64,000 bases of DNA, taken from the NCBI GenBank assembly GCA_947172415.1, contig OX359197.1, forward strand, positions 4,278,001 to 4,342,000. The letters run 5' to 3'. This document shows, one piece after another, positions 672 through 60,564 of the stretch (position 1 is its first letter; every line of letters starts with the position of its first letter). The position numbers were made by a program, and so were the translations under genes. The DNA is from Chondrosia reniformis. Lineage: Eukaryota; Porifera; Demospongiae; Chondrillida; Chondrillidae. The notes under the pieces are model-generated. The model ran no database searches. It was given only the letters and a program-made list of their open reading frames with translations, and was not told the origin of the DNA.

Positions 672-1602
672 TTATATATGTCGTAAGTGAAGCAGGTGTT
701 TTCCTTATATGGAAAGATGGACAAATAGAGTGAAACATCCAATATTGGACATTCTGAAATGCGGACAACCTCCACACCATAGACATACTAAATGGTCCCA
801 AATGATTTGCTATAGAAACCAATATACATTCATACCTCCATTAACAGACACTCCGAATGCCGACATGTTTTGTTGTAGATTAGTCGAGTTTAGGCTAGAA
901 TTGATATTGTTTGTTCAATTACACTTACTGTACGTGTAACACATGTGTGATTGACAGATTAATTGGTGTAAATTACATGTTTATTAACTTAAGTATTTCA
1001 TCAGCAAAACAGCCTGTTGGAGGCAAAATTGTGAGGTGAAATTGTGGAGGTGGCAGAGTATGTGTATACATTTTAGGTACAAAAGAATTGGCTCAGTGGA
1101 ATCTTAGACAGATTGGTGGGTTGCCAAAGAGGGGGTGGAATATCGAGGTGATACTACATACATATAAAGAGAAGGCTTACCATGTATTACACCCATCTCC
1201 AAAAGCAAAGGTTGCTCCAGGCATAAAATCTCTCCCTTTATATGGACAGGCACAGACATCACAACATTCACCATCAGGAGCTGGTAATACTTTAGCATTT
1301 TCATCACAAGTTGGGCATGTGATTTCCTTATGGAAAGATTCAAGAAATTTAGAATAAGTATATTAGGTATTTATGTAAAAATATGTATGTATCAGTTGTA
1401 ACAGGGATATATTTAATATACTTACTGGACAAACAACAACTCCCCTTTTGCAAGTACTAATGCAAAGACAAAATGTATGTTTAAATGTAAAAACAGAAAT
1501 AGAAATAGAGTTACCAATCTTGCATGCATGGTTCTCCAGATTTAAATCTTGTCCCATCATCCACCATAGAACCATCAGTAAGAGTACATGGTATTGCTTC
1601 AA
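672..1602 (-). CDS. Gene L, VWC-type cysteine-rich cassette
   Basis: Exons 1602..1515, 1456..1426, 1326..1181, 894..836 and 753..672. Together they encode one VWC-like repeat (PCTLTDG...GEPCMQDCTCKRGVVVCP...CPTCDEN...APDGECCDVC) followed directly by a second (CPYKGRDFMPGAAFAFGDGC...). Phases are 1-2-0-2-1-2, identical in genes M and R. The last visible exon ends in AA before a GTGTAA donor, leaving phase 2, which fits the tail exon found in M and R. VWC domains are found in secreted matrix and growth-factor-binding proteins. Further C-terminal exons must lie outside the window. Confidence 0.8.
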
Positions 1603-4600
1603 CTAATCAAAAGAAGCAGCACAAAAACTCAAAATATTTCCAGTGTGTACCGTCTCCTAACTTACACTTATCACACAATATACCAGTATATCCATCATCA
1701 CATTCACACATATTAGGAAAAACACAAATACTGTACCATGGCCGCAAGAAGGAGAGCATATGGGTACAGCACAAGAGTAGAAAAATGTGATTCTTATAAT
1801 TCTACTGGCTCTGAGGCAGAGCTACACATAGGTAAACTCATAGGGACTCTGAGATGCATGGTTGTATACCTCAAAAGCCATGGGTTAAACCATAAATACA
1901 TATATAAATATATATAAAGAATACACAAATTGTTGACTTAAGAACAGTACCATCATTGTCCACGATTGTAACTTCTGATGAATTAGATAGTTTTAGAACA
2001 CGCCCAGCATCTTCTTCTGATCTTGTGACATTGATGTTGTAATTTAACTTGAAAGATTCAGTTGGTTCTGCTATATCATCATCAATAAGAGTGACACTCA
2101 GATTGGAAGAGTATCTCTCACCAGCATCAAAATGGACCCTTTCATTTATAATTTCAATGTAATCCATATTAGCTGCATGTAAAAATGAGTGAATTCTACA
2201 ACATGTACATTGTAGCAAAATGTAGATGACTATTAGAAACCATCTACTACATTGAACAGGTAGCACAGGTATATTTTCCAATGAAACTAAACAAAAGATA
2301 TGACACAAGTTGAATGAAAATTAAACTTAAGTGGGAATACAAGAAAAATAAAAACATTTAAAACTGAAGTTAGACGTAGGGAGGATGACCAGTTTTGCAA
2401 CAATGAATATATAGCACCTCTAGAAAAATGTGAAACGAGACAGTGATCATGAGATAGAGTTAACCATACAGAAGTGGTATACTGAAATTTAAGTTACTTA
2501 TCCATATTCATCATTTCTGTGTTTGGGTGCACCATCCCTACTTCAGCTATCTATGGAGCGCCCAAAACACAGAAGTGAGACTGTCAGACCTAAGTGATAT
2601 CTGTATAACCTCTCCCAATAGCTGCAGAGAAATAGCTTGGAAATCATCCATTGAGAAAGATTTTTGTATAACTGCCTAAACAATAAGTTGTTGGAGCTGT
2701 ACCAGCCACTCCAAGGTATATCTATCAATGAACGAATGGTTTAAGTCTAAACCACAAGGTTAATGTAACTGTGCCTAGTATGATTAATCCTCCCATTTCT
2801 CCTTCTGTTAGTCAGTTTAATCTCCAACCCATATCCTAAAACGATTGTCTGTCTATACTTGAGGATAAACTACAAGCTAAATCCACTGGTCCTGATAACA
2901 TTCCACCTTTCATCCTACAACTATGCAAATATCTGGTTGTTATTCCTCTAACCAATATCATCACCTCTTCCTTCTCCTCTGTAGCTGTTTTCCAACCACT
3001 TGGAAGCAATCCTGGGCCAAACCTCTCCACAAAGGTTACCCCAAGGACTTTTTTTACCAACTATAGACCGATCTCTTTTCTACCTACCTGTAGTAAACTG
3101 ATTGAACATGCTGTATGGTCACAGTTAGTTCACCATCTTCACAGAAACAACCTCCTTATCCTCTCCAGTCAGGATATATATAGGTAAGGTCATTCCACCA
3201 TCATCTATACCCTTAAAGGTCACTAACGACTGGTATGATGCTCTAGATGCTGGCCATTTTGTTTGTGTTGTCTTCCTGGATATGGCAAATGCCTTTGACA
3301 CAGTTGATCACCCCCTGGAATTTTCAGCTTATCTTTAGAGATGTTTGCACCTTATCTTTCAGGTAGTATATACCCAGCGTACTATCATAAATGGTTGTTC
3401 CTACCAAGCCTTACCCTTCTTTGCTGGAGTTCCTCAAGCTTCATTTCTTGGGCCAAATCTCTTTTTATTCACATAAACTGCCTCCTGCTGTTTGTCCTCC
3501 ATCATGCAATACAATTCTTTTAGCGACTCCTTACATCTCTGGGTCCTCTATGACCCATATCAACTCAGTCCTATCCTAGACCTGTCTGTCCCTACCAACA
3601 AACTATCCCTTGATGTTCAGTAGACAAAATGCATACTCATCCATTTTTCACATAGGCATGTCTCCCCTCTCTCAATTCTCTAAATGGTTCCACTATTGAG
3701 CAGGTCTCTACCTTTACCTGTCTTGAATATGTCATTAGCCAGCATCTCACCAAGGCCTTTCATATAAGGGATAAATAATTTGTGGTTGTACTCTACCCTA
3801 CTTGCCTGGCTTTGTTTCTTCTTCCTTAGTAGTCCTTCAGCCGCCTTTCTATATAGGGTGTCCATTAGCTTGGAGTACCCTTTCAGGTGCTCCTATTCTT
3901 CATTGAGGCTTTTGGGTCCACAGATCTTCTCTGCTCTGTCCATCAGACACAGTGCACTGGATACCCTAGAAAGTAGGCTCAAGGACTACTAAGGAAGAAG
4001 ACTCAAAGCTAGGGAAGAAGGGTAGACTGCGACCACAAATTATTTATCCCTTATGTGAAAGGCCTCAGTGAGATGATCTCTTGAATTAGCCAGAGGATTG
4101 GTATTCAAACCATCTTCACGAAACAGAGATCACTGAAGAATATCCTTTCTATTCCCAAGCAGCCAGAACAACCAATGGATATAAAAGATGTGGTTTACCC
4201 TGTTCTCAGTGTTTTGCAGTGTATACCGGGGAGACAGAAGGATCCTGAGGGCAAGAATGACTGAACAAAATTGATCAGTCTGAATGGGAGATGTGAACAA
4301 TGGTCTTGCTGTTCACACTCTCAGGACGGGCCATGATACTGCCATAATTGCTGACAGGGAAACAAATTGGCAGGAGGAGAGTCAAGGAAGCACTAAAGAT
4401 CCAGCAATGTCAGGTTAGAATGAAGTTAGACCAAGGGAGCATTCTACAGCATTCCTGGAAACATTTTTATATTTCCTCTTCTTCTCTTCCAGTTGGAGAT
4501 CATGTGACAGGAACTAAAAAAGGTGTCTATAAAAGGACCACTGAAAATCCTATCCATCAGTCGCTGATGACCCCCAGGGTTTAAACATTTGACCAAAAGA

Positions 4601-7600
4601 TTTAAAAAGCCAAATTGCGTTTTTAGACGCTCAAAAGAGTTGAAAGATGTACCATCTAAAGGATAAGTTCAACGCAGTTAGAAGTAATCATTATTCTATT
4701 ATGAGAATGTCATGAGGAAGGTCATGCTTCTCTCCTATATGTACATCATATATCTTAACATCTTTTAATGTGGCATAATTCTGAAGCCTTCCAGTCTAGC
4801 GGCCTGACCAAGGTTGCATACATTCCCTTAAAAATGCAAGAGCCTTGCTTGAATCTAATAGTACCTGTCAGTAATCACTACAATAAGCCTAAGTACATAT
4901 GTAACTCCTTGCAATTGAAAGTAATAGAATATGAAACACTTTATATTGATCAGAACAACTATATACTCAACTGACCTTTAGCAGTTATATCCTCTGACCT
5001 GACTTCTAAATTAAATCCAAAGGTATAATAGCATTCACTGTTGACAGGCATATATGTACCAGACTTTTCATATAGTGCTTCATATCGGACACTGACAAAT
5101 TCATCCTCATCAAAATGATTCATTGAAAATTCTGGTCTGACATATACAGCTGCATGACATAAAATTATTATACATCCTTATTCTAAAAGAAATTTGCTTC
5201 AGGGACATACCATTAATATCAGTAATGACTACACGAGTCCTGCTTTTATCTCCAAGTATGATACGTGTTTCATCGTCAGAAATTGGATGAACTGACAAAT
5301 CAAAGTATTCAGTTCCTTCAACCAAACAGTCTGTTTCAAGGTCTATTGAAAGCACTGAAGATGCTCTTCCGAACCATGGGTCAAAACGTACTCTACCAAT
5401 GTTAGGTGTGATTACGTAGTCAGCTACACATGTACATAAGTGAATCTGGTAAATTATCAGTGAATGAGAATGGTTATACTTACTGCGTTATAATAACAAT
5501 TCTTAGAAATGAGCCATAGTTTGTGTAAAAAATGATATTCTAATGTAAAGGATGGGTAGATTATTCAAAGCCTATTCAGTTCCTTCAACCAGACAGTCTG
5601 TTTCCAGTTCTATCCCAAAACTGGAACAACATGATTCTTATAGATAAATGTAAATGATAATCATCTACACACATACACAAGCGATTAAGGGTAAAATTCC
5701 CAGAAACAGCTGTCTGGCCCAGTGAAGGAAGAAAAAGAAGAAGCCCAACGATATCAGGTTTCCCCCAAATACTAGTTTTAGAAAATCAGTCTATCCTCCC
5801 TTAGCTTCCTTAATTTCAAACGTATGTATGATAACCATAATCATTATTGGAATATGGTGTTCTAGATTGTTCAAAAGTGAATATATTAAATTTATAAAAA
5901 AGGGCAGACGATGGTTATGCTTATTGCAATTATAACAGGCAGTTTAGTGACTATGTGATTCATTCTTATAGACGACAAGGAAACCAAGACCTTGTAGTTT
6001 CATTGTATTTGTATATACAGACATGACTACAGGCATGACTACTTGGGTTATAGACCATTTTGAAACTTGTACACAAGGCTAAAATCTTAATAATAAAATC
6101 AACATAACTGTCAAGCTTAAAATCTACAAACTCAAAAATATATAATAGGATATGTACTAACATGTAGTGTCTATACAACATACGTAATTGTAACATAAAA
6201 TCTAAAATGATACAAAACACTTTTCTAGATACTGTTTGTGATTAAGCAGGTCACTCCTTGTATATATACATCCCTACTTATAGAGTACTACCGTACTCTA
6301 TGATAATTGGCATGATTACAAGATTGCCTTACCAGTGAAAATGATAAAATAAAAATGTGTCTACAAAATGACTGATCATCTGAAATTCTTACGTAAAGTA
6401 TTTGGACTGCATGCATCCAAAATTGTAACTTAAAGGTACCATACCAGAATCTGCTTCATATGGCTTCTCAGGTGAGCTGATGAGGAGAGATGTGGTAAAT
6501 ATTTCCACTTGAAAGGCTTTAGCAAACTCTAAGGTTGCTACTAGTCTGACTCTTACTTCCTCTCCTTCAGTACCCATATATGTACTGTGCTCAAAACCTA
6601 TTTCAAGATCTACAAGTATAACCGAAAGAAGCTTGAGACTACTGAGGTATGCACATACATATGTAGGAAACAAATTTCATACCTGGCTGAAAAATGTACA
6701 TGGACAGAGTTTTAAGTTGTGCAAGTGTACAGTGTGATCAAATTACTTAGGATCCATTTTTTTGTTACAAACAGCACACTATACAATCATGAAGGATCAT
6801 GAGTCTCCACTAATACATCCAACCCAGGAAGAACCTGGACTCTCTCTTAACAAATGCATTTTATATTAGTGTGTCTACTTCATTAATTTTTGGTACTAAA
6901 ATCACATTAAATTGATTATAAACAAAATATTAAACTGACACAATTATATTTGGAATTACAGTAATATGTACTGCTTATATCAGCTTACCATCATCATCTT
7001 TAATGATAATTGAAATTGTGTCTGGCTCTCCAACAACCCTACCATCAGCTTGTTGACCAGTTGGTAGTAAAATAACACATATGAAGGTTTCACCTCCTTC
7101 AGATATATCATCATCTACAATAATAAGTTCTGCATTGGTTGAAGTTGTTTCTTTTTCACCAACACCACTCTGAATAAATTCAACTCTTTTGTTTGTTAGA
7201 TTATAATCCTCATCTTCTGCAATAAAATGGTGATACATTAAAGGATATAGCTGTCTCAATCCCTATACTGAAGGGGAAACTTTCTAAAAATCAAACTTAA
7301 AGTAAATATTCTCAAAGAGAAAAACTTATGAAAGAAGCAAGTGCAGATAATCAAGACAGCTAGTTTTGACCATCGGTACTCTAGCTGCCACTGAGCTACA
7401 GTTGCCACAATATTATTTCATTCATGTATCTCCTCTTGTGCTAACTAGAGAGTAAATACTTAGAATCCATTTACACTAATTACGTAAGCTATGATTTAAA
7501 TGTACACATATCAACCAAGCTGGTAATCAGAGATCCAGCTCATTTCCAGTGGATCACTGGCCACCATCATCCACAGGAGAGCTCTTTTAATCAAATAATA

Positions 7601-10600
7601 TCAGTAGTGATATTCAAACCCCAAGTAAATCATTGCGAAAACACAATTTTTGGGAATCAAACAGGATAGCTGGTTTTTAAGTAAAAGTGCTCTACCATTG
7701 AAATACAATTAACACAGCCAATACTCTATTCATGTTTTCATGATTAATCATAGCTAAAATAAATATTGTAACATGGGTATTTTACCTGTTGCAGTATTGT
7801 CAGAATGAACATCAAAACAAACTACTCTCACAGTAAATGCTCTTGCATAGAATCCACTAGCTTTCAACTGAAATGGGTATGTTCCAATATCCTCACTTAT
7901 GTGTATAGTATCATTTCCAACAAATGATATTATAATTTCTAAGTCAATTAAAAAAGATATAGAAAGAATTCATATTGACTAATTGATCTCACCATCATCA
8001 TCCTCAATAGCTACAGTAAGTGTAGCTGGTTCTCCCTTTTGTATGTTTGTCATATTTGGAGGCAAATCAAATGTAACACTTAATTCTTCTACTCCTTCCC
8101 ATATTTCATCTTCTGTAGTTATCAATGTAGCAGGGTTTGATTGTGTTTCTCCAACAGCAAATTGCACTTCAACATTAAGTCCAAAAGGGTTTTCAGCAAT
8201 GATAAAATCATCTAAGATTAAGCAAAAATAGATTAGAATAATTTAAGCACCTTTAAAACTGGATATGCATACTACTAGCAACCTTACCATTATTTTCGGA
8301 AGTAAATTTCAGGTTCACTGTAAAGTTTTCAGTGATTGCACCAATTGCCAAAATTCTGATTTCAGATTGGCTACCCTCAAGTATTTTCATCCGTGAAGAC
8401 ATAAATTTTAATTTCACTGGATTGTTTGGAATAACTATGGAATAGTATATGTAAGAGTTTCCATTATTCAGGTTAAAGATCCACTCTCATGAAAATGTAA
8501 ACATTTGTAGACATATAGTTATTACCTGTTTTAAATACTTTCCACATACTGTATACAAAAAATCAAGAGTCAGTTTCTAACTACAAATAACCTACTAAAA
8601 TTAGCAAGTGCTTAGTCAGTCCCTTCTTAGACATACGTATATACTAGATAAGAAACACTACACAAGTCAACATAGGATCATTTGCCCGTTTATCATGCCC
8701 AGCTTATATAGAACAAGGTATAGTGTAACACCAATACTAGGTATTGTATTACAACAGGCCACACTGCAAATTCTAGTTATGGTCCCTTTTAAATAGCCAA
8801 TAACAATTATATCTGTGAATTTGTATAGCTACATAGGAAGCTTCAACAACTCATGGTGATTTCAGGTGGGGTCCAAGATATATTAATTGAGATGACAGTC
8901 TCATCAACACTTCACTCACCCACCGTAACATTTTGAACTGGTGTAGGCCCATAACCTAAAACATTGATAAGTAGTGCAGAGGAGATAGAAAGAACATATA
9001 CCAGCTCTTTTGGTTACTTAGCAGGTAACTATAGAAAGAGATTTCAATCAGTGAGGATTGGTACTTACTGGGTGCATTCAGTTTCACAGTGTGATACCTT
9101 AGTGGATAGTATCTGTAAAATTCTGGTTTCATTATAGGAAATATCTGTGTGATGGAAGACAATAGAAACCAATATTAAGGTATAAAGGACTTAGAGAAGA
9201 GGACAAGAAGACAAAGATTACAGATTACCAGGTATCCTGATGAAAGGTGCTGACCCAGTATTTAAAAGAAAAAATCAATATTATATGAAACTGTGAGTCA
9301 ACCTTATCTATACAATATTATATTCATAAACCCTGATCAGTGGGTAGAACTGGTGATAATAAAGCTGATAAAATTGGGTTCAGTATCCAACTACTGCTTA
9401 CTGTTATCTCTTAATGACAAATATTATGTGTATAATTTAACCACTTCAATTTTACATGCATCTATTTACTTGGAATTGATAAAGCTTGTCTTCATTCTTT
9501 GGAGGGTAGCGTGAGTTCATCTTGTGATAATAAAATAAATCATTCGGCTGCAATGATACACATATAGGGAGAGTATTATAATATTAAATTCTCATATTGG
9601 TCAAAGAGGAGACTTACATTTGTAAAAATCCTTTCTGAAGGCAGAATCTGATCAATCTTTATCACTCCTGATGCTTTTATCTTTATGGTGTGAACACCAA
9701 TCTCCAAAAAACGCAACCCTTCTCTTAAGTAACTAACATTCGGAAGGGTAACATTTAACTCTAACTCATAATATCCTAGGTTGTTCCAGCTCCAAGTTTC
9801 CTTCACATCCAAGCTCAGATTTGGGTAACCTATGAATGTATAGGTACTAACGTATATACTTGTAAAATAAAAGGAGCCAAATTTATATATATAGTGCAAG
9901 TTATACAATATAATATAAATAATTCATATGGCTCCAAGAAAGGACCTAGAAACAGAATGGGCATATTATCATAAAGTTTAGGATATAAAACTAATTTTAA
10001 ATTATGAACACCTGGCTGCGTCTGTTGAACTTTCCGGTGCATTGTCTGCGTGTGCCTAAGAGAGGATTCCACTGGGAAACAACTGCCCCTGCTCCAGTGG
10101 ACTGCAGTGGCCATCCAAAGGGGAAATACAGCCGCTGTGCTAGGCACAGCTAATATTGATTCATTCAACTTATTTTAATGTCCTCTATTACTATTAACTA
10201 ATGATTATGCAAGTATATGCTTAAAGTAAGAACACATGCATAAATACGTATACATTACCCACCAAAAAAGTCAATATACACAGTTTTAGTGACTCTATTG
10301 TAGCTCTTGTTTGCATTGGCTTGGGTTGGTTGTGAAATCACCTATAGCACCAAAACAGTATATATAAGTAATCTCTTAATTCAATATCTTTCTCATAAAA
10401 TTAACTGTGAACTTACAGTTATACTAAACAGACACAGAAACAAAATCTGAAAGTCATCTGTACTTTTTATACGTGTCCCTGTAGCAGTCTGCAGAAACAT
10501 ATAAGTACAACTTTTGGAAAATTATTACGCATATTTAAAATAGTAATACTGCACTACAAACCTTTGGGAGTGTAAGGGTTTTCTCAGGGTAGTCTCTGCA

Positions 10601-13600
10601 ATGCTGGTGAGTGCCAATGACTACACTGGAAACCTTAACTTCATAGTTGGTTAACAGGCCATCTTGAGAAGGAGGAACCCAAGAAAGCATCACAATTGCT
10701 GCATTTTTGTCATTGGGATCCTCAACATAGTTTGTGGTAAAGTTCCTTACAGCATTAGGAAAAGACGCACCTACATAATAGAACACATTAAATGTTATTA
10801 CATGACCATGAAGACTTGGGATTTGAATTATTTCATACGTATATACTTAAATGTGGCTATAGACAATCAATATGTATGCATGTACATTTAGATATAAAAA
10901 GTGTATATGTAATGGATGCATTTTAACTAGGTACATCAGACTTCCAAATTATAGCATGGAACAACTAAATGCATTACTGATTACATTGATCCAGTTGCAA
11001 CAATATTTAATTAACTTGTTAACTTAATCATAAACAATCAAAAACCTATTGTATCAGTGATTAGTTTAATTAGTCCAGGAATACTATAAGGTAAACAACA
11101 TATATACTGTAAGTATATAGACACTATATTTCACAAAAACACAACTACAAATATAATTAGATAAACCAACCACAAGTAATCAAATGATGGACATTGTGAA
11201 GTGGGAAAACATGAAGTAAGGGAGCAATTGCGGAGATGAACTCAGGAATAGTTGGCTCTGATAGCCAGTGCTCTGCCAATGGGTTACAAATGGCACAGCG
11301 AAACTCCATTCATGCCTCCCTCTTAAACTATAAACTACATACAGTACATGTATTGCTACCTATAGCTAGCATAAAAGAAACAATTATACTAAATCTAATA
11401 TAAATACATGGTTCTGGAATTCATGAGTAACAGACTGGCAATGTACCTCCTGCACAGACCAGAGTTGTACAATATTTTGGATAAATGAGTAGGTAAGTTT
11501 GTCCTCTATATACGTAAGTAGGGATGTCACAAAAAACATTGCTATCCTATTAAATGTAATACAGGTTATCACCCTAAAAATCAACAAAGAATACATTTTT
11601 GGTTTTTTAAAGCTCCCATATATAATTTGTAACTGCTGCTCACATAAGGACAAGAAATTCTGAAGCAAAATGACATGTACAGATAGTAAGATACACAAAG
11701 CACATTCTATCCTATGTAGAGTAACATCACCTCCAGATAAGGCTCTCCTACTATAAGGTCCTTGAACTCCGGCACCAAAAATTTCAGCTGCTACCCAAAC
11801 ATAGTAGATGGTATCTGATTGCAGTCCAGTCAATGTAGTTGATGTATCTGCAATTCCTGATCTCTTCATAGCATAAGATGGCGGATCTGTCTGATTACCA
11901 CTATTAGTTGAATACCTAACTACATATAATATGTTGTACATTGGATCAGATACTGCATTCCATGAAACAGTCAAGGATGTTCCACTTCCAGTTACCATGA
12001 CACTTTCAACTTGAGGTGGTGGAGGTAATACAGATTCAGCAGGTGGAGTTTCTGTAGCAAATAATATACTACTTTTAATATATATAATATATACGTAGGT
12101 ATTTATACCATACATATAGGAGTATAAATTAATACGAATATATACGTATGTGTATTTAAGTTATGTATTAATTATATTCAGTACAAGTTACTATATACTA
12201 AGGTAATCTAATAAATAATATAAATAATATAAATAATTCATATGGCTCCAAGAAAGGACCTAGGAACAGAATGGGCATAGTATCATAAAGTTTAGGTTAT
12301 AAAACTCCTTTTTAAATTAAGGAATTTTTTATTTAGGTCTCCGTTTGATAGAAAACGAAGGACAAAGTCTGCATATAAAATGCCATAAGACAATAGAAAA
12401 CTATAGAAAATTTATATTGAAGCCAAGTGTTATATTGATAAAAATTATCAATTGGTCAGATCACTGTGAAGCCAACATATATCATGGTACACGTGTATGA
12501 CAAAAGTCTGGCGAAATATTGCTTAATTGATATAATATATACAATTTTATACCCTAAACTTTATGATACTATGCCCATTCTGTTGCTAGGTCCTTTCCTG
12601 GAGCCATATGAATTATTTATATTATATTATATTATTTATTTATTTATATTATTTATTAGATTACCTTAGTATATTGTAACTTGTAATGTATATAATTAAT
12701 GCTTAACTTAAATACACAATGTATATATTCGTATTAATTTATACTCCTATATGTATGATAATCTTGGTAATTTAAGCTCTGTCTTCTCTTCTTTTGTTGG
12801 TTGTACATATTTTTACTTGTCAATGTGTAAGAATAAGGAGTGTTTATTGCGATCATTATGAGAATAAAGTCTTGCTGAGTGTCAGCAACATGAATTTACC
12901 AATTTTCTATATACTTAATATTCCCATTCCTGTATTACTGATGAAGACCTCCGGGTTGAAATGTCCAGAATTAGTAAATTTATGTTACTGACGTTCAACA
13001 AGGCTTTATTTTATCCATGTGTGTACGTTTTCCATGTGTACATACCGTAGAATCTCATAACGAAATTGCTCATAGTGAGTCTAAGTATAGTGAAGTACTT
13101 TGCTGGCTAATTACACTCAAGTACATTACACAGTGAAAGTTACTGGCAAATATTAAAATTGCAATCAAGTACTACACAGTACAAATTACAAATTTAAAGA
13201 GATCCAAGTGACCCATAGGATAATCAGTATTTTAAACAGTACAAGAATTTAGTCACACTGTTGTAGGCTTATAAATATCTAAGTAAGGCATATATGTACG
13301 TATGTATATATGTATGTATACGTACATGCTGATGAAGACATTCCATAGTCACTCATATATAATTGGATGCAGTTTGCAAGATATACGTAAGTAAATAAAT
13401 CTTCCACTTTATACATCTAGCTGTTACTCTTGAATTTGAACTGTATTTATCAGTGTTAAAACAAATCGTAAAGAAAACTACAGTGTATGACCTTTCTTAG
13501 TTTCATTGGAATTTATGCTGTTACTTACGAAATTTTTACACCATGCATGGAGTATATGCTATGGGAGAATTTTATATGTTCATTCAGTGTACTATATAAG

Positions 13601-23940: not shown

Positions 23941-23944
23941 ACAG

Positions 23945-46180: not shown

Positions 46181-46199
46181 ATTTTTAGTACTGAACTGA

Positions 46200-48470: not shown

Positions 48471-48479
48471 TACATCCTT

Positions 48480-48805: not shown

Positions 48806-48899
48806 CAATGAAGACGAAACTTATAGAAGATATATATACCATCTCATAAGTATACACTATTTTCATATTGTTTATTTTCTGTATTGTCTGTATTTTTAG

Positions 48900-49707
48900 C
48901 AAATATGGTGGAAGAAAACTGGTCCATTAAAGGGTGTAATCATAGATGGAACAACTGCATGATCTTACCTTGCACTGACAGTCAACAGTGATGGAATGCT
49001 AGCCACCATGGATATGTACAACAGCTGCATTTGCCTGTTTAATGACATAGGAAAACTTGTGAAGAGCTTTGAAGTAAGAAACAATGGCTGCCAGGTTGTG
49101 GATATGTATGGTGTAGTTTTTACCAAAAAAGGAAACATTGCAGTCACGGTGTATGGTGGAAGTTGTATACTAATCTACTCCCAAGAAGGAACACATATTA
49201 GGACCATTGCATTGATGGGTGATGCAAGAGGATTGGCAGCAGATCAAAAAGGCAATCTTTACATGTGCATTGAGCTTAAATGTTTAGTATGTGTATACAC
49301 TGAAGAGGGCAAATTGAAGCTGCAGTTTGGTTCTAAAGGAAAGGGCAATGGCAAGTTTGAAACACCCTATGACATTGCTGTTGGTATGAATGGTCTGATC
49401 TATGTATGTGATCATTCGAATATGAGAATACAAGTGTTTAATGGTGAGGGGAAATATGCTTATCATTTGGAAACAAAGCAACTGTGTTTTCAGCTCTGTG
49501 TATCGCAATGCAATGATGACGGTTATCTGATCATTGCAGAAGGAAGAAAGAGGCACAGTGTCTGTGTATAAAGATACCACTTTTGTACACAACTGGACTT
49601 ACAAAACTGCAGCTTCCAGACTGAGTGTAGTTGCTGCTGGTATAGCTGTAAACAAGAAGGGTAGTGTTTATGTTGCTAATTGGGACAGCGGTATTTATGT
49701 GTTTTGA
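48900..49707 (+). pseudogene. NHL-repeat protein relic (right copy)
   Basis: After an acceptor at 48899 the frame reads QIWWKKTGPLKGVIIDGTTA, a TGA (48960-48962), then about 195 residues of NHL repeats: NSDGMLATMDMYNS, KKGNIAVTVYGGSCILIYS, RGLAADQKGNLYMCI, FETPYDIAVGMNGLIYVCDH and GYLIIAEG. Near 49550 a 1-nt frameshift is needed to continue into GTVSVYKDTTFVHNW and NKKGSVYVANWDSGIYVF, then stop. NHL propellers bind protein or RNA in TRIM-type proteins. An ATG at 48996 could begin a shorter ORF of 191 codons. More complete than the left copy, but probably not functional in full. Confidence 0.72.
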
Positions 49708-50251
49708 AGGTTTCTTCATTTTTTTTGTTTTGGTAATTTGTCACAACAGATTTGTTTCATGTACCCTTCCATTCCTTTCAAGGTTGTTTCATTTGCAAGT
49801 TGTAATTTCAAAATTTCCTGTACATTGAAAATTACCTAATGTACATAAATGTTTTATTTGCCTACTACTTCTACAGTGAATCTGATATGTACATATATAT
49901 AGGACTCTTATGCACAGTTCATAAGCATTCCTGAGTGTCCACGGCTACACGTACACTGTTATATTTTATATAGTTATATAAAGAAGCAGTTGCTGGGAAT
50001 CAAGCTCACTTTCAGGATCACCATAACCAGTTATTTTGTCGCCAAACTCCAGCTACAAGAAAGAAAATTCAGTTGTTGCCTAAATTCTTGTATCTTGTCA
50101 ACTAGTTAATCTTTAAAAGTATTTAGCAGGGTTGTATGATATGTTGGTTTAATGGCCACCCTTATTCAACCTTTCCACAAGAAGGTTTGCTCTTTGACTC
50201 TAACTTAGGAAATTACACCAAATTGACTTTAATGACATGCATTTCTTACAG

Positions 50252-50824
50252 TATGCAGGTGTGTATTCCATAACAAAGACTGCATTGCTTAGTGCCACCA
50301 AAGCATTAGCATCAGAGTTGGCTAAAGATAACATCCAAGTGAACTGTGTCGCTCCAGGGTTTATTAAAACTAACTTAAGTTCAGTAGTAAGTTGTTTGCC
50401 AAGAGCTATTGTTATAGAATGATGGTTTTATGGATGTAATGACCTCTTGTTATGAGCGGTTCAAACAATCAGCAGTATATATACGTATTAGTTATACATT
50501 ATTGCTCAATGACCCTAATTACGGGATTGCATGATTCTCTTATTGCCTATAGATTTGGAAGAATGAAACCATCAAAAAGTAGAATGGAAGAAATGATACC
50601 ACTTGGAAGGTGTGTAGATCATTTCCCATTCCCATGCTTACGTTGTTTAATTAATGATAGCGTAGAATATCTTAATATAGAACTTTACCACTTTAACAGA
50701 ATGGGTGTCCCTGAAGAGTGTGCAGGTGCGGTTTCATATATATATATATCTTTCTGGTGATGACTCCAAGTACGTAACAGGAGAAACTTTAGTGATTGTT
50801 GGAGGCATGCTCTCAAGATTGTGA
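50252..50824 (+). pseudogene. DHRS4-like short-chain dehydrogenase, 3' exons only (right copy)
   Basis: Exon remnants 50252-50386 (YAGVYSITKTALLSATKALA...APGFIKTNLSSV), 50553-50609 (FGRMKPSKSRMEEMIPLGR) and 50700-50824 (MGVPEECAGAVSYIY...). The splice acceptor CTTACAG lost in the left copy is present. But a TA run in the last exon is 4 nt longer than in the left copy, shifting the frame before GDDSKYVTGE. The N-terminal Rossmann half is absent. Ends in SRL codons as on the left. Confidence 0.83.
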
Positions 50825-51241
50825 GACCATGAATTAATGCTACTTATGAATTTATAGGTAGGTAATTGTTACGGAAATAGTCTTTGCTATTATACTATAC
50901 TTACTTATACTTTTACTTTCAGTTTAGGTTCATAATACACAGTACCTGGACTGTACAGTTCTCTTATAAACTTGCACCATTCTTAACTTTGATTCTATCA
51001 AGTCGATACAGTTTTGCATGTAATGCGGTACTCAAGTTTTGTACATTATGTGGGACACAAAAAAAGTGCAGCATAATATTATGCCTATATCGCTGCATAA
51101 CAAGGCTTGACCATATAATGACACCCCATAATTTGCACATTGTAGTCTTCGGGCTACATAATATAGGCTTCACAAGAGGACGTATTATAAACCAACAGTC
51201 TGCTAGCGTGTCAATACGTATACCTGTCAGTTTATGAGGAG

Positions 51242-53531
51242 ATGCCGAAACGAGCAGCTAGCGTACTGTCACTGGCTGTGTTCGCAATCATTGCTTTGAC
51301 CTACGATCCTTCGAAAGGTGGGGACTCACTGGTTCTTTATTGAAAGAAAATAATTAATCTTACTCTTTTTGAAGCTGTTGTGAGGGCAATAAAAAGTAAA
51401 GTTATACCAGGACCCAGACCGGATTGGGCGACCTGTCGATGCGATCACGATCAGCAGTGTGCGTATACTATAAACGAGGGAAACATGTTTACAGGTGATA
51501 TACTCTTCTAGTTGTAAACCATTATTAAGCTGTCTAATTTAATATATACGTGCATATGACATTATTATGCATTCTTTTTATCTTGCTGCATGCACATGTA
51601 ATTTTAATTTAATCTTATTAATCCAATCATGATCATAGATGCTCTAATATTAATGCATACAGAACTTATAAAGATCACAAACATTGGGCGCATTTCTATA
51701 TATTACAATTGCTCAATCTGTTCTGTCCGTGTATTTGACCACTTATTTGCTGTGTATATAGTGTAGACTCTTTAGCAGCATTTGTTTTGTGATAGTAATA
51801 AGTTGTAGTATTGAACTATGGTGACTGCATCAGTTTATAAACCTCAGTGTACTGGTGCAGAATTCTAGCAATTTAGACTGCTGTAACTGTGGATGGGGTA
51901 TATAAGTCAGCATCATGATTGTGTTATGTACAATAATTAGGATCATGTGAACTTAATGGAAATTGAAAATTGGAAGTGTCAGATATAAATCCACACAGTG
52001 GTAGACAATAAACTGGGAATAGAATTATCCTGCATGGCTTAATGTAGGAGATTATTTTTAGTAGTTTTGTATAATACGCATATATACAAATTAACTAATT
52101 ACTAAGTTAATATGTAAAAATTCATATGTCCTAATAGAAAATGAAACAGTGCTAGCAAGAGTAGTTGGTGGTAGCCAACCCAATGAAGGACGTGTTGAAT
52201 TGTACTTCAATAATACTTGGGGATCAATTTGTAGCTACTTTTGGGAATGGGATATCAAGGAGGCTAATACAGTATGTAGAATGCTTGGATATTCATTTGC
52301 TGCAAGAGTATGGGGAGCAGGAGAGTTTGGAGAAGAAAATGGGACTACATCAGTTTATAAACCTCAGTGTACTGGTGCAGAATCTAACATTATAGACTGC
52401 TGTAACTGTGGGTGGGGTAAATCATGTAACAACAGTCAGCATCGTGATTTTGGGGTCACATGTTCAGGTATGTAGACGAAATTGTGTTTTCTATTCCTTT
52501 GCTTTATGAGTTGTATACAAAACACTGTATGAGTTAATTGCACTGAGCTGTGCAAAGGCTATGATGATAAGCAAAACATGTTGCCAATTTAATAGGACTT
52601 CAATCCCCCAGCTAAGATCGGTCACTTGGCTGGTTTGGCATAATACTTTTCAGTGATTCTTTTACTTAGCATATATACATTTTTAGTTAGACAATGAATT
52701 ACATATAGCTATATATAAATATCTATTGCCCTTATCCACCCACTACAGATGAAGTGGTGTCAGTTAGACTGATTGGTGATTATGGTGTAACAGTTGCTCC
52801 AAATGAAGGTCGAGTTGAGATATACTATAACAACACTTGGGGTACAGTTTGTCACTTTGGCTGGGACATGAGAGATGCCCATGTAGTCTGTAGAATGCTT
52901 GGATATCCATTTGCAGTTCGTTCCAGAATTTCAGCTTACTACGGATTAGGATATGGTCCAATTTGGATGTCTATGCTTGCTTGTACAGGAAGAGAGAATA
53001 GCATAACAGACTGTAATCATGAAGGATTCAAGTCTTTATCATACTGTCATCACGGTCATGACGCTGGTGTACAATGCTCTAGTAAGAGATCATCATATAA
53101 GTGCAATTACCTTTATATGGATTATACATGTACTGTTCCTCAAACATGCATGGGCATAGCTTGTAGGAAATGGTGTTTTAGATTTTTTATTCCTTTCTGT
53201 ATTACAGGTGATGATCTGACTATCAGATTATCTGGTGGTTATAATGACAATGAAGGAAGAGTGGAGATTTTCTTCAATAATACTTGGGGAACTATCTCCG
53301 ACAGCATGTGGGATAAGAATGATGCCAATATTATATGCAGGATGCTTGGATACACTGGTGCAGCGATAGCTTTATCAAACTCTCATTTTGGAAAAGGAAG
53401 TGGTCCTATTTGGTTGACTAATGTTGGGTGCACTGGTCAAGAGGACAATATTGGTTTATGTTTCCACTCTGGATGGGGTGCATGCCAAGATAATTGTAAC
53501 CACAAACACGATGCTGGAGTTGTATGCTCAA
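51242..53531 (+). CDS. Gene R, signal peptide and three SRCR domains
   Basis: Exons 51242..51317, 51375..51494, 52138..52467, 52749..53081 and 53208..53531; SRCR exons are phase 1-1. SRCR2 has one extra residue compared with L (GFKSLSYCHH against GFNLSYCHH). The intron 53082-53207 is 126 nt and open, as on the left. Motifs NEGRVE, NNTWG, CRMLGY are intact in all three domains. Confidence 0.92.
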
Positions 53532-56500
53532 GTGTGTTAACTATTGTGTAACTCTAGTACTTGTTGCTGTATATCTTAAGCCAAATAATATGTATAGATA
53601 CGTGCATGTGAATATGTTAATAGACTTGCTAGACTGTCCTGAATAAGTGCCAAAAGGCATGGAATTTGAAGGGAAGGGGGACAGTCTAGTAGCACTTTAG
53701 ATTAAATAACCTTTTTGACCAATCAGATGCATTTATCCAGAAACCTGGATAAAATCTTTTGTAGCTACGTATAACACATTATTGCAAAGGTGTTATTTAA
53801 TCTATGGTGCTGCTAGACTGTCCATCTCCTTTTACACGTACTGTTAGGCGCTTATTTAGGATGATCAAGCAAGGGACAGACTAATGTGAATGTTAAGTAT
53901 ATTCATAGCTATAGATTTTACAATATAATTGACCATTTAATTATAATTCTCTGCCTTTATTATTTGCTTACCATTATAATTTCCCACAGAACAGAAAGTT
54001 ATCCCAGAAGCTACTACTGTTGCAGCTGGATATCCTCATGAGCAAACTACTACCATCACTGTAACACCTTCCCTTGGGCAATCAGTAGAGCTACAGTGTA
54101 GAAATCGAGACTTTAAACAATGGTACACTACAGGAAGTCAAGTAAAACCTACTCCAAATGTAATAAGTACAGCTTCTGGAGCTACAAGAACTTTGGCTTT
54201 TTATTCATTTAATCCAAGTCATGCTGGAACATACTCTTGTCTGGCCTCTTCTAAAGGTGATACTCAGACAAAGACAACATACCCTGTGGTACTTGGTAAG
54301 TCATACTTCTACGTATACTGCTTCCAAATTGCAGATGTAATTAGGTTATTCATAATGTTTGTATGTTAACCCAGTCATAACAAGCCACATGCATTAAGAG
54401 GTGACACTGTATGCAGCTCTATTATATTTATACAGTTTAAGATGCGAGACATATATATATATAAGAGATAAGAGCATATATCCATACATTTCCAAAAATG
54501 ACGTATGTATTAACGCATCACAAGTAGGTAATGGTGATTATATTAATTACTCTTACATAATGGCAATTGGGCTATACGTATATGCACGTATGTTATTTTG
54601 TAATTAAGAATATTAATATCATTACCATATGCCTACATGTGATGAGTTCATTATGTAAGAATATTAATATCATTACCATGTCTACATGTGATATGTTCAT
54701 TATGTAAGAATATTAATATCATTACCATGTCTACTGTGATGAGTTCATTATGTAAGAATATTAATATCATTACCATGTCAACATGTGATGTGTTCATTAT
54801 GTAAGAATATTAATATCATTACCATGTCTACATGTGATGAGTTCATTATGTAAGAATATTAATATCATTACCATGTCTACATGTGATGTGTTCATTATGT
54901 AAGAATATTAATATCATTACCATGTCTACATGTGATGAGTTCATTATGTAAGAATATTAATATCATTACCATGTCTACATGTGATGAGTTTATTATGTAA
55001 GAATATTAATATCATTACCATGTCTACATGTGATGTGTTCATGATTCATTTTAGAAAAATGCTGTATCATGTGAGATTACAAAGTTGCACACTCCTATCT
55101 CCTATGTACTCTTGCTTATACATTATAAGATGAATTTAGGACAAAATTAATATTCTTACTATGCATTGTTTGATATGTGCTGTTACAGTTGCAGCCATGC
55201 AAGTGTGTACAAAATGTTTGGTTGTGACTCTCACCAATTGCTTATTTGAGTGTGATCACTGAAATATATTTATTAATAATATTTATATTATATATAAATG
55301 CATGTATATATGTATTTTATATATGTTGTATAATACAAATTACTATTGACATGTACGTATGTGTATGCTATATTACAAGTACCATTTAGGTTGAAACAAT
55401 TCAAATTCCCTAATTACAGTCAATCCATCATCAGTTAATACAATAAGAGTGGGCAGGACTGATGATCCAACTACTCCTATCACTATAACACCTACCCTCA
55501 GTCAACCTATACAGTTGGAATGTGAGAGGAGTGACAAAATGAAGGAATGGTTCACTGTTGACCCTATGAGCAGAGTAATAACAACAAAAGGAGAGATTTC
55601 TCTTAGATCAGAGCAGGACAGCACACTGTACATCTCATCATCTAACCCATTTCATGGGAAAGGGTACACATGTAATGTCTATGGTGATTTCTGCTCTATC
55701 ACTGCCTATCCAGTAATACTAGGTCAGTAACTCATAAACTATATACATATAATAGTGTGGTATGTAAGATTACATGCCTAGATTTACCCAAATATAGATT
55801 TATTTCTACTGTTATGTATAATTTTGAGTATATTTGCGTAACTTTAAGCTTTAAGTTAAGGCCCCAGAATTGCTAAGATTATGACTATAGAAGGTGTTAA
55901 GTACCTCAAGTGCAAAGGGAGGCAGCCCCACAAGTATTTAACTGAAATTATTTGTTTCCTTACGTATTTACTTTATAATGTTTGAGAAATACTACTACTA
56001 TATATGGTGGTTAGATTATCACTTATATAGTACACTGAATGAACATATAAAATTCTCCCATAGCATATACTCCATGCATTGTGTAAAAATATTCGTAAGT
56101 AACAGCATCAATTCCAATGAAACTAAGAAAGGTCATACACTGTAGTTTTCTTTGCGATTTGTTTTAACAGCGGTTAAAAAGGTTCTGACAAAATTAAAAA
56201 CCAGCGAGTATATAAAAGTTCGAATTCAAGAGTAACAGCTAAATGTATAAAGTGGAAGATTTATTTACTTATGTCTTACGAAGATATATCAAAATAAATA
56301 TATATTATCACATTTTCAAGTGCATCCAATTATATATGAGTGACTATGGAATGTCTTCATCAGCATGTACGTATATGTACGTACATATATGCCTCACTTA
56401 CATATTGATATATATAAGCCTGCAACAGTACTAGTGTGACTAAAATCTAAAATACTGATTACCCTATAGCTATGGGTCACTTGGATATATATTTGTAACT

Positions 56501-59500
56501 TGTACTGCATGTGTAGCTAGGACTTATATAATTAATTGTAAATAAAGTCGTTTGGACCTCTTAAATTTGTAACTTGTACTGTGTAGTACCTGATTGTAAT
56601 TTTAATATTTTATATATTTGCCAGTAAATTTCACTGTGTCGTGTACTTGAGTGTAATTGGCCAGCAAAGTACTTCACTATACTTAGACATTCACTATGAA
56701 CAATTTCGTTATAAGATTCCACTGTATGTACACATGGAAAACATACACACATGGATAAGAATAAAGCCTTGTTGAACTTCAGTAACATAAATTTACTAAT
56801 TCTGGACATTTCAACCAGGAGGTCTTCATCAGTAATATGTACAGGAATGGGAATTTGTAAATTCATGTTTGCTGATGCTCAACAAGGCTTTATTCTCATA
56901 ATAATCGCAACAAACACTCCTTATTCCTACACATTGACAAGTAAAAATATGAACAAACAACATAAGAAGAGAAGACAGAGCTTAAATTACCAAAATTTTC
57001 ATACATATAGGAGTATTATTTATTTATTTATATTATGTAGATTACCTTAGCATATTGTAACTTGTACTGTATATAATTAATGCATAACTTAAATACACAT
57101 ATATACGTATATATTTCTATTAATTTATACTCCTATATGTAAGGTATACGTAAATACCTACGTATACAAGTATATTATAATTAAAAGTAGTATATAATTT
57201 GCTGCAGAAACTCCACCTGTTGAAACTGTATTACCTCCACCGCCTCAAGTTGAAAGTGTCATGGTAACTAGAAATGGAACATCCTTGACTGTTTCATGGA
57301 ATGCAGTATCTGATCCAATGTACAACATATTATATGTAGTCAGGTATTCAACTAATAGTGGTAATCAGACAGATCCGCCATCTAATGCTATGAAGAGATC
57401 AGGAATTGCAGATACATCAACTACATTGACTGGACTGCAATCAGATACCATCTACTATGTTTGGGTAGCAGCTGAAATTCTTGGTGCTGGAGTTCAAGGA
57501 CCTTACAGTAGGAGAGCCTTATCTGGAGGTGATGTTACTGTACATAGGATAGAATGTGCTTTGTGTATCTTACTATGTGTACATGTCATTTTACTTCGTC
57601 CTTATGTGTTACAAAGCAGTTACAAATTATATATGGGAGCATTAAATATATATTATAATTATTATACTATATTTGGGAACTTTAAAAAGCCAAAAATGTA
57701 TTCTTGGTTGATTTTTAGGGTGATAACCCGTATTACATTTAATAGGATATCAATGTTTTTTGTGACATCCCTACTTATAGAGGACAAACTTACACTACTA
57801 ATTTATCCAAAATTTGTACTATATATATGAGCTTATAAGTTACTGTAGATGTAAAAATACCATACATGAATCATTCAAATATACAGTAAATCAATCGGTA
57901 TATATACAATATATATACAACACACATTTAATTTAGCAGCATTTTGACAACCCAAAAGAGACAATACAGTAAATGGGTTTCCATACACTGTATGCATTCT
58001 ATATGCATTTCTGGTTTAACCCATGGCTTTTAAGGCATCATAGGATACAACACTGCATCTCAGAGTCCCTATGAGTTTACCTATGTGTAGCTCTGCCTCA
58101 GAGCCAGTAGAATTATAAGAATCACATTTTTCTACTCTTGTGCTGTACCTATATGCTCTCCTTCTTGCGGCCATGGTACAGTATTTGTGTTTTTCCTAAT
58201 ATGTGTGAATGTGATGATGGATATACTGGTATATTGCGTGATAAGTGTAGGTTAGGAGATGGTACACACTAGAAATACTTTGAGTTTTTGTGCTACTTCT
58301 TTTGATTAGTTGAAACAATACCATGTACTCTTACTAATGGTTCTGTGGTGGATGATGGGACAAGATTTAAATCTGGAGAACCGTGCATGCAAGATTGGTA
58401 ACTCTATTTCTAGTTATGTTTTTACATTAAAACATACATTTTGTCTTTGCATTAGTACTTGCAAAAGGGGAGTTGTTGTTTGTCCAGTAAGTATATTAGT
58501 CTTGCTAGAGATATAATTATATATATATATCCCTGTTACAACTGATACATACATATTTGTACATAAATACCTAATATACTTATTCTAAATTTCTTGAATC
58601 TTTCCATGTAAGGAAATCACATGCCCAACTTGTGATGAAAATGCTAAAATATTACCAGCTCCTGATGGTGAATGTTGTGATGTCTGTGCCTGTCCATATA
58701 AAGGGAGAGATTTTATGCCTGGAGCAGCCTTTGCTTTTGGAGATGGGTGTAATACATGGTAAGCCTTCTCTTTGTATATAGTGTCACCTCAATATTCCAC
58801 CCCCTCTTTGGTAAACCCACCAATCTGCCTAAGATTTCACTGAGCCAATCCTTTTGTACAGAAAATGTATACACATACTCTGCCATCTCACCATTTCACT
58901 TTACAATTTAACCTCACAATTTCACCTCCAACAGGCTGTTTTGCTGATGAAATACTTAAGTTAATAAACATGTAATTTACACGAATTAATCTGTCAATCA
59001 CACATGTGTTATAATTTAACGAACAATATCAATTTTAGCCTAAATTCGTCTAATCTACAACAAAACATGTCAGCATTCAGAATGTGTGTTAATGGAGGTA
59101 TTAATGTATATTGGTTTCTATACCATTTAGCATGTCTATTATGTGAAGGTTGTCTGCATTTCAGAATATCCAGTATTGGATGTTCCACTCTATCTGTCCA
59201 TCTTTCCATATAAGGAAAACACCTGCTTCACTTACGACATAAGTGTAAATTATTGCTAGCTTAATGGGAACTAGAGTCTCCCCTTTAGCATTGAAGCGTT
59301 TATCGTTATTTGGTGGGACTTTTAGGATGGCTCTGCTAGCATCTGGTTGTTTTTGCTTAAACGCTGACGACTTCATAGTATGCTCTTGCCCTGACTACTC
59401 CAACTGTCCTAAATGTAAGGAGAATTGTCCACCCTCCAAGAAGAAATATCTTAGTTTACCACCTTCCATATTTGGGCAAGGATATAACAGGATTTAAGAA

Positions 59501-60564
59501 GCCGATGCAGTATATACGTAGCTTCTTGTTATATCACAGTTACGAAATTTAAACACAGGTACGTGGTTGTCCTGGCAACGGAGTATATGTTTAAGTTAAA
59601 GGAATTGTAAGCAGGCAATCTATAGCCTTTTACAAACTCTGTGCTGAAGCTTAATGATGAAAAAGGATGGTTAACTATACCTACATAGGCTGAGACCCAT
59701 ACAACTGGTATTTGGGGCAATTTATGTCTTTAAGAGAAGCTTCTGCCATGTTGTTTTTGTACATTTTATATACTGAAGGTACTGTGTCAAGGAGAATTAG
59801 TACTTTCTGTGTTGCTTTTAGCTCATCTATTAATTCTTTCACACCCATTTCACAGTGTTTGTGCTCCATGAGCAATCCTTCTCATTTGTTTTTATTTTAC
59901 TTGCACATAAGGAAAAAGAGGTGTATATAGTATTTTTATTGTGTGTAGTAACTGTTTAATCGATGGAACACGTTCATGTACTTCTGATGACTGTGGTAAG
60001 AATCATTAGCTGTAGAATTGCTCTCTGTTGATAGAATATGTGTATGTGTGTAAAGTAAAGCCTTTGTTACAGAGTATCCTATTCATTATACAGAACTTAT
60101 GCCAGAGTGTTCACATGATCTTTGTGTTAACTTGAATGATGAAGAGCAGATTAATACTTATTGTTACATGTAAGTACATAGCGGTACAATGTGCCATTCA
60201 TTTTCCATTGCTATATAGTGAGCATTGGAGGAGAGGATATTATCAAAATAGATGACCATTTTATCAATTTTGAAAAGAAAAAGAAAAAGCCTAGAGATCC
60301 ACTTCTGGTATTTCTTCATGATTTAGAGATGCTAATGTTTCCCTAGGAAGCATTCAGTATGTGCATCCATCTCGTGGTTGCTTCCCTGTTACAACATGTG
60401 CCTCCTGCTATTACAACAAACAAGAGAAGGCCATTCCAAGAAGGTGTACTACCACAGAATTCAAGTGTAGAGTGCAAGCCTTTAATAGGCAGAGATGTCT
60501 GAATAGACTTGGAAGTTGCATCACCAAAACAAGCGTTCCAGATATGCAAATGTGTGTTGCGTAA
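51242..60564 (+). CDS. Gene R: secreted SRCR-Ig-FN3-VWC protein
   Basis: Plus-strand inverted copy of gene L lacking the Calx-beta array. Start ATG 51242 (MPKRAASVLSLAVFA). Exons for the signal peptide, three SRCR, two Ig and one FN3 are intact and in phase with L. The VWC cassette follows directly. In the exon 59165..59242 a 4-nt TATA deletion relative to gene L leaves the wrong phase, so the predicted protein ends soon after the next splice (about 840 residues). The tail exons to the stop at 60564 remain open by themselves. No transmembrane segment. Probably secreted; adhesion or recognition by analogy. Confidence 0.83.
51820..51926 (+). pseudogene. Decayed partial SRCR exon in intron 2 of gene R
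   Basis: Matches the 3' half of SRCR1 (GCATCAGTTTATAAACCTCA, GACTGCTGTAACTGTGGATG) but broken; twin of 17428-17525. Confidence 0.7.
53679..53823. mobile_element. 145-bp MITE in SRCR3-Ig1 intron of gene R
   Basis: Inverted ends GGACAGTCTAGTAGCACTTT and its complement; ortholog of 15502-15646. Confidence 0.65.
53990..57528 (+). CDS. Gene R, two Ig-like domains and FN3 domain
   Basis: Exons 53990..54295 (Ig1), 55420..55722 (Ig2) and 57208..57528 (FN3), all phase 1-1 and close to the gene L exons. FN3 shows SLTVSWNAVSDP, YVVRYST, YYVWVAAEIL. After this exon homology with L continues to about 57830, then jumps to the sequence equivalent to L position 1930, so the second FN3 and Calx-beta exons are missing. 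Confidence 0.87.
54630..55045. repeat. 49-bp intronic minisatellite, about 9 copies
   Basis: Units of GTCTACATGTGATGAGTTCA plus TTATGTAAGAATATTAATAT and CATTACCAT, nearly identical and varying mainly GAG/GTG. The left arm has about three units. Confidence 0.9.
56230..57200. repeat. Repeat-rich intron of gene R
   Basis: 56440-56700 is the TTGTAACTTGTACTGTGTAG dispersed repeat. At 56796-56850 (minus) lies a degenerate CTGATGAAGAC...GAAATGTCC motif. 57000-57150 holds outer arms of the palindrome seen whole at 12108-12765. Confidence 0.55.
58091..58261 (+). pseudogene. EGF-like exon relic in gene R
   Basis: Same 171-nt broken EGF-like unit as in L (CSPSCGHGT / CVFPNMCECDDGYTG in two frames with a TAG in the phase-1 frame). 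FN3 to VWC splicing that skips it stays in frame. Confidence 0.55.
58310..59242 (+). CDS. Gene R, VWC-type cassette
   Basis: Exons 58310..58397, 58456..58486, 58613..58758, 59039..59097 and 59165..59242 repeat the L and M cassette (CTLTNGSVVDDG, CTCKRGVVVCP, DGECCDVCAC, FGDGCNT). The last exon lacks 4 nt found in L (GACATATATAA against GACATAA), breaking the frame into the tail. Confidence 0.78.
59245..59945. other. Intron of gene R, unassigned open frame
   Basis: 59264-59497 (plus) has a cysteine-containing frame (SCPDYSNCPKCKENCPPSKK) that I cannot assign and that fits no splice phase well. 59620-59940 mirrors 26760-27080. Confidence 0.35.
59949..60564 (+). CDS. Gene R, C-terminal cysteine-rich tail exons
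   Basis: Exons 59949..59995, 60073..60169 and 60327..60564 match the gene M tail (NCLIDGTRSCTSDDC, YPIHYTELMPECSHD, RGCFPVTTCASCYYNK). Five extra bases in the last exon give ITKTSVPDMQMCVA and stop instead of the NVCC ending of M. Confidence 0.65.

Follow-up and report, generated by a model that had tools for sequence, protein, structure and literature searches.

A Chromosome 9 Gene Cluster of the Sponge Chondrosia reniformis with Different Predicted Extracellular Heads on a Common Cysteine-Rich Tail

Introduction

The molecules by which sponges recognize self and symbionts are still debated; Calx-beta aggregation factors have been put forward on the one hand and SRCR receptors on the other. 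A 64,000-nucleotide stretch of Chondrosia reniformis chromosome 9 (C9:4278001-4342000, here the window) unites both kinds in one predicted gene, L, inside a family with a common tail. How were such genes assembled, and what might their products do? The window was examined together with 90 kb of each flank (244 kb in total) in a chromosome-level assembly for which RNA reads are publicly available. Coordinates without a chromosome prefix are relative to the window, negative values lying to its left.

A sequence-only reading of the window had proposed three clustered genes, L, M and R, assembled from shared cassettes as A+B+C, B+C and A+C. Here, A denotes the SRCR-Ig-FN3 cassette, B the Calx-beta block of L, B' the Calx-beta block of M and C the VWC-like tail. 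All three genes are present, and their modelled exons are open, with AG/GT splice sites throughout. The cluster is larger than proposed: five tail-bearing genes (U, L, M, R and V) lie within the 244 kb, U and V just beyond the window. The cluster thus holds at least five genes, arranged in tandem and in part inverted, which all end in a common cysteine-rich VWC-like tail.

Results

Gene L Carries SRCR and Calx-Beta Domains on One Tail

Gene L (minus strand) matched its proposed A+B+C structure: a signal peptide is followed by three SRCR, two Ig-like and one FN3 domain, four Calx-beta domains and the tail, which comprises four VWC-like exons and two further exons. Its 21 exons give 1384 amino acids with zero internal stops, each junction being AG/GT, and the signal-peptide exon and all A and B exons end in phase 1.

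18033..18108, minus: L signal-peptide exon, phase 0 to 1 (scan and model); same position in U and R
11731..17204, minus: L cassette A overall, all exons phase 1-1 (model and Pfam)
17204-16875, 16564-16235, 16108-15785, minus: three SRCR exons of L
15327-15022, 14197-13895, minus: two Ig-like exons of L
12051-11731, minus: FN3 exon of L
9618-10770, minus: L-specific stretch located between A and B, holding an incomplete FN3 exon and a further exon-like open reading frame
about 8800-8944: FN3-like piece with stops, between A and B of L
1951..8434, minus: L cassette B, eight phase 1-1 exons encoding four Calx-beta domains (model and Pfam); copies in V and Q
8434-8288, 8211-7993, 7938-7786, 7216-6989, minus: L B exons 1-4
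6609-6445, 5423-5211, 5149-4976, 2172-1951, minus: L B exons 5-8
1667..1801, minus: EGF exon remnant in the L tail, intact in a chromosome 3 relative
1602-1515, 1456-1426, 1326-1181, minus: L tail, VWC-like exons V1-V3, within the window
-3111..-3157, -3252..-3327, -3481..-3736, minus: L tail, last three exons, left of the window

The profile search that had been suggested as a check bore out most of the domain assignments. Judged against the curated Pfam cut-offs, with matches taken to E 0.05 for L, SRCR (E = 4e-72; 239 bits against a cut-off of 26.1, in three stretches), Calx-beta (E = 9e-23), Ig_3 (E = 5e-9) and fn3 (E = 3e-6) all scored above cut-off in L. Pfam called a single Ig domain, and the second was assigned by reading of the sequence. 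Since VWC reached 22.7 bits, under its cut-off of 27.6, the tail is named VWC-like.

Near-Identical Heads Lead into Different 3' Halves

Gene M (minus, 46039-26083) encodes a signal peptide unlike that of L, four Calx-beta domains (Pfam E = 2e-23 for the head) and the tail. It comprises 758 amino acids with exon M4a, and its frame is open both with and without this exon.

45979..46039, minus: M signal-peptide exon; peptide identical in Q2
37260..45914, minus: M Calx-beta block B', distinct from cassette B of L
45914-45735, 45652-45425, 45343-45188, 45049-44825, minus: B' exons 1-4
43696-43526, 43401-43162, 42834-42679, 37475-37260, minus: B' exons 5-8
37943..42623 (4.7 kb), no strand assigned: insertion in an M intron with DDE_Tnp_4, THAP and YqaJ open reading frames; absent from Q2
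26083..33003, minus: M tail C, exons 33003-32916, 32857-32827, 32694-32549, 26713-26667, 26568-26493 and 26338-26083 (stop)

The proposed B+C composition of M held for the separate signal peptide, the four Calx-beta domains and the tail, and failed for the origin of the Calx-beta block. That M shares the B cassette of L was rejected: no blastn match was obtained, the domains are 19-32% identical and the exon lengths differ.

A copy of the M signal peptide and Calx-beta block, Q2, was found at C9:4064998-4069091. All nine exons are equal in length, and the two loci are 97.1 and 98.0% identical in two blocks, together about 4.5 kb with the signal peptide included. The homology stops at M 36861, about 400 bp inside the intron past the last Calx-beta exon; beyond it, Q2 continues into other open reading frames that are Calx-like by eye. 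The tail was not found in the 10 kb read at Q2.

Cassette B likewise occurs in three contexts, L, V and Q. Gene V (64510-73756 plus upstream Calx-beta exons) carries B and then C. Counted from the first exon of B, its reading frame is open over 721 residues up to the stop (one base added to set the frame), with AG/GT sites throughout, and its B is 88% identical to that of L at the amino-acid level. Upstream of B lie Calx-beta exons with phase-1 splice-site candidates, which are putative parts of V, and a candidate signal peptide (79174-79090). The 1.7 kb holding these upstream exons (76514-78219) share 97.6% identity with gene W, which is situated to the left of U. Q (C9:4115542-4119586, plus) has a B copy with all eight exon lengths equal and AG and GT at the mapped ends of seven of the eight, and continues into additional Calx-beta exons. 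The tail was not found at Q, either in genome-wide tail-exon searches or by reading of the locus. The next exon of Q, and that of Q2, each offers a phase-1 acceptor. At the boundary between B and C, Q-L homology ends at L 1925, and the C homology that A+C genes have in common with B+C genes begins at L 1904-1910. All modelled head-to-tail joins fall in phase-1 introns, and the frame is therefore kept. Thus, near-identical 5' halves lead into differing 3' halves (M/Q2; L, V/Q), which argues for exon-block recombination as evolutionary history.

In the cluster genes, each Calx-beta domain is split over two phase-1 exons. Calx-beta matches concentrate on chromosome 9, in several clusters, among the 150 of 458 candidates that were scored.

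The Same Tail Follows Other Heads Elsewhere in the Genome

Close copies of the third VWC-like exon (82-98% identity) and of the last exon (80-100% identity) occur at the same 14 sites: five in the cluster, five on chromosome 3 (6.26-6.33 Mb), one on chromosome 5, two more on chromosome 9 (1.73 and 1.82 Mb) and one on chromosome 2. Weaker matches lie on chromosomes 12 and 11. Heads were examined at nine of the 14 tails, i.e., the five of the cluster, one of the five copies on chromosome 3, the chromosome 9 copy at 1.82 Mb and the copies on chromosomes 5 and 2; at the loci on chromosomes 3, 5 and 2, part of the tail fell outside the sequence examined. Outside the cluster, the head consists of three SRCR domains, with an intact EGF, at the chromosome 3 copy, of Calx-beta at the chromosome 9 copy, of VWA plus EGFs at the chromosome 5 copy and of FN3 repeats at the chromosome 2 copy. 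The first of these FN3 repeats is 54% identical to the FN3 of cassette A.

Heads and tail are cassettes that can be separated from each other, with phase-1 introns at their borders. Copies of two of the heads occur elsewhere on the chromosome where the tail was not found, and the tail occurs elsewhere on other heads.

The last 215 residues of L, R and M contain 27-28 cysteines. The last tail exon had no Pfam match, a protein database search with the tail yielded no relative at E 0.001 from 168 candidates (limited to proteins of about 760-2420 amino acids sharing five-residue words), and a PDB sequence search with the tail gave no convincing match.

R and U Share a Junction That Lacks B

Gene R (plus) has the A exons as in L and then the tail directly, giving 13 exons and 872 amino acids. 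Its proposed A+C structure and end at 60564 were reproduced.

51242..57528, plus: R signal peptide and cassette A (model)
51242-51317, 52138-52467, 52749-53081, 53208-53531, 53990-54295, 55420-55722, 57208-57528, plus: R exons, signal peptide to FN3
57815..58000, plus: A-to-C junction in R, about 185 bp common to U (93.6%) and unmatched in L
58310..60564, plus: R tail C overall, ending at the stop 60564
58310-58397, 58456-58486, 58613-58758, 59949-59995, 60094-60169, 60327-60564 (stop), plus: R tail exons
47112..61060, plus: inverted segmental copy of the U unit, containing R; pieces 92.6-97.2% identical

Gene U (A+C; -10790..-19721, 877 residues, AG/GT throughout) lies left of the window. R and U have the same B-less junction with the same 185-bp filler, and Calx-beta was absent from both models. 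The proposal that exon lengths and phases agree across copies applied to cassette A of L, R and U, with SRCR2 of R (3 nucleotides longer) as the sole exception; the Calx-beta exon lengths of M and L differ.

Divergence and Selection

Across blocks A, C and X, substitution distances between units ranged from 1.7 to 9.0%. In cassette A, the distance of L from U and R is 2.3-2.7% for the SRCR exons and 7.4-8.4% for the region around FN3, and R differs from U by 1.7-3.7%; this pattern fits conversion among 5' ends. U and R paired in 500 of 500 resamplings for the Ig2 and FN3 blocks. From gapped identity, the L tail had appeared far closer to V than to U; this was rejected, because substitution-only distances with resampling were less clear-cut.

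The dN/dS ratios were 0.44-0.60 for A and 0.26-0.80 for the tail, where the shifted end of R raises its values. For B, pN/pS was 0.88-1.27 among L, V and Q, close to neutral amino-acid change, yet each of the three copies is free of stops; the chance of zero stops in B under 95 random changes was 0.035. L-V divergence in B was focused in exons C2b and C3b at both site classes and may stem from conversion by another paralogue. M and Q2 differ by about 26.5 nonsynonymous and 1.5 synonymous changes. These counts were rejected as proof of positive selection, since Fisher tests on rounded counts were borderline (p = 0.064 for 26/2 and 0.011 for 27/1) and nonsynonymous and intron rates were not different (p = 0.27). 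The SRCR exons of R and U show 8 nonsynonymous to 1 synonymous difference, too few for use. Taken together, the Calx-beta heads change fast yet stay open, which is suggestive, not proof, of diversifying selection.

Neighboring Sequences

Further elements were observed in and around the cluster. NHL-repeat open reading frames and exon fragments of a short-chain dehydrogenase lie upstream of R, L and U, and the NHL-repeat frame is open over 202 amino acids near R and broken near L. A reverse-transcriptase open reading frame (RVT_1, 28.0 bits; cut-off 29.6) lies in the long intron of the M tail. Near the end of the apparent gene before Q, a large open reading frame had no Pfam match and no convincing PDB match; one possible identity is a Wreath-like aggregation-factor domain. 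SRCR matches lie mainly on chromosome 3 and others (150 of 893 candidates scored).

48963-49568 (plus), 23291-23869 (minus): NHL-repeat open reading frames
50267-50389 (plus), 18967-19089 (minus): short-chain dehydrogenase exon fragments
28727-30088 (minus): reverse-transcriptase open reading frame
C9:4110950-4111576: large open reading frame before Q
-44637..-41387: tandem array of repeats of about 81-84 bp, left of the cluster

Discussion

Assembly of the Cluster

The best overall explanation, which we hold to be somewhat better than an even prospect, is a cluster of shuffled heads on a common tail with secreted multidomain products. As to its history, it is very probable, judging from the sequence comparisons, that heads and tails were joined by germline cassette recombination. 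Segmental duplication would have come first, followed by recombination inside phase-1 introns that joined heads to tails in the germline. The proposal that the locus makes new extracellular proteins by recombining exon blocks thus survives as an evolutionary history, without its A+B+C, B+C and A+C scheme, which fails for M. Recombination is well supported for M, V and B, and less so for the exact parentage of L. The locus is a clear and recent example of phase-1 exon-block shuffling, one pair (M and Q2) being just 2-3% diverged.

Several observations weigh against this explanation. Every gene model is a prediction from genomic DNA. None of the five cluster copies has an undamaged EGF exon in its tail: the exon is out of frame in L and R and contains stops in the other three, M, U and V; the tail frame is preserved when this exon is left out. 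The final residues of R are frame-shifted relative to the other tail copies, the first B exon of Q has no AG acceptor at its mapped position, and about 2.6 kb between A and B of L hold exon-like pieces that the model skips. The resamplings also diverge. For the Ig1 block, L groups with R in 321 of 500; its nearest relative in the C1 block is U in 190, R in 149, M in 129 and V in 32 of 500; and it is nearest to V in 257 of 500 for C2 and in 415 of 500 for X. The substitution distances therefore do not cleanly mark L as a hybrid, and either a gain of B by L or a loss of B from U and R may have taken place. As regards function, the assignment was drawn from domain names alone.

Ordinary tandem duplication with later loss of exon blocks from an ancestral A+B+C gene would require no joining of unrelated genes, and the products would be structural matrix components, in which VWC-like domains are common. 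A single event would then explain the B-less junction shared by U and R, and every substitution distance among copies of A, C and X falls at about 2-9%. This account is nevertheless rather unlikely, since loss alone is insufficient for three findings: the head of M matches Q2 at 97-98% identity, and in Q2 other sequence occupies the place of the tail; the upstream exons of V match W (97.6%); and tails elsewhere follow VWA-EGF and FN3 heads. That the copies are alleles or misjoined contigs is highly improbable. Inverted and tandem near-copies are difficult to assemble; however, the 244 kb contain zero N, and passages of PMC12181767 describe an assembly from HiFi and Hi-C data with a quality value of 69.8 and haplotypic duplications removed. 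Moreover, five tail copies with differing heads exceed what two alleles would give, and the insertion is present in M and absent in Q2.

If the Calx-beta genes were instead sponge aggregation factors in the strict sense, the SRCR genes would be their receptors, fused or linked. The division of each Calx-beta repeat into two phase-1 exons and the many Calx-beta exons on chromosome 9 (within the scored candidates given above) fit this idea, and demosponge allorecognition has been attributed, in a passage of a review (PMC10815962), to a Calx-beta aggregation factor gene cluster. Against it stand the last tail exon without a Pfam match, the absence of VWD and VWA matches from the Pfam scan of L and of the M head, and the U and R models without Calx-beta, and we regard it as quite improbable.

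Possible Functions

Past the signal peptide, the top 19-residue hydropathy was 1.06 for L, 0.93 for R and 1.43 for M. Because these values are low, no clear membrane segment was assigned, and the three products are predicted to be secreted modular proteins. In the mechanism that we favor, the head would have other sponge cells, matrix or microbes as its ligand, and the tail shared by all would cross-link the protein or anchor it in the matrix. Whether adhesion or recognition is the function of the products is an even call; adhesion, aggregation, allorecognition or microbe binding may each be envisaged. More speculatively, and on balance doubtful, the genome may hold a germline repertoire of variable heads (SRCR, Calx-beta, FN3 and VWA-EGF) on one constant, secreted, cysteine-rich tail, joined in phase-1 introns. 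The chromosome 9 cluster would then fuse microbe-type (SRCR) and aggregation-type (Calx-beta) heads in combinations that vary from one individual to another and act in the recognition of self or of symbionts.

Comparison with Known Systems

The sponge aggregation factor gene family, with MAFp3 and AqAF, was reportedly described by Grice et al. in 2017. Aggregation factors likewise have two-exon phase-1 Calx-beta domains, and a Wreath or VWD domain is typical of them. The present cluster resembles them in its Calx-beta repeats and clustered genes. It differs in its tail, which is VWC-like with a cysteine-rich exon that has no Pfam match, and in the SRCR-Ig-FN3 heads of L, U and R. Neither VWD nor VWA was found in the Pfam scan of L or of the M head, and nothing named Wreath was among the matches.

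The Hydractinia allorecognition complex consists of clustered, duplicated genes with modular extracellular domains, whose transmembrane Ig-like proteins have genetic proof of function. The genes described here are likewise clustered, duplicated and modular in their extracellular domains; in contrast, their predicted products have no clear membrane segment, and they are known from sequence rather than genetics.

The best protein matches of cassette A were DMBT1-like SRCR proteins, covering 47-69% of the query, and Calx-beta (PF03160) was among the Pfam domains of none of them (120 listed of 4112 matches). DMBT1-type proteins carry CUB or ZP with SRCR, unlike L, in which neither was found by the Pfam scan at E 0.05. 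Cassette B gave two weak matches when the 7994 best candidates were scored, with the Pfam entries Calx-beta and PF03797, which we take to be an autotransporter.

Sponge SRCR genes respond to microbes or microbial molecules in passages of PMC6208332 and PMC11229196, and an Amphimedon graft study found, in the part drawn on here, no enrichment for aggregation-factor-mediated adhesion (PMC5450542). None of the cited SRCR, aggregation-factor and graft studies shows the function of the present proteins. The combination of SRCR, Calx-beta and a shared tail was not described in the searched literature, as far as the portions consulted extend. SRCR with Calx-beta may already be in print, and a Halichondria receptor figure legend lists Calx-beta among other domains, with partners unstated in the excerpt (PMC8242945). 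The expanded SRCR superfamily of sponge and sea urchin, as portrayed in sections of PMC10855680, resembles the present cluster in its tandem SRCR clusters with conserved exon structure, and exon shuffling was considered there too. Its main text contains zero occurrences of 'calx' or 'vwc' (supplementary domain tables lie outside this count). In contrast to that superfamily, what the present genes share is their 3' tail, with SRCR and Calx-beta united in L.

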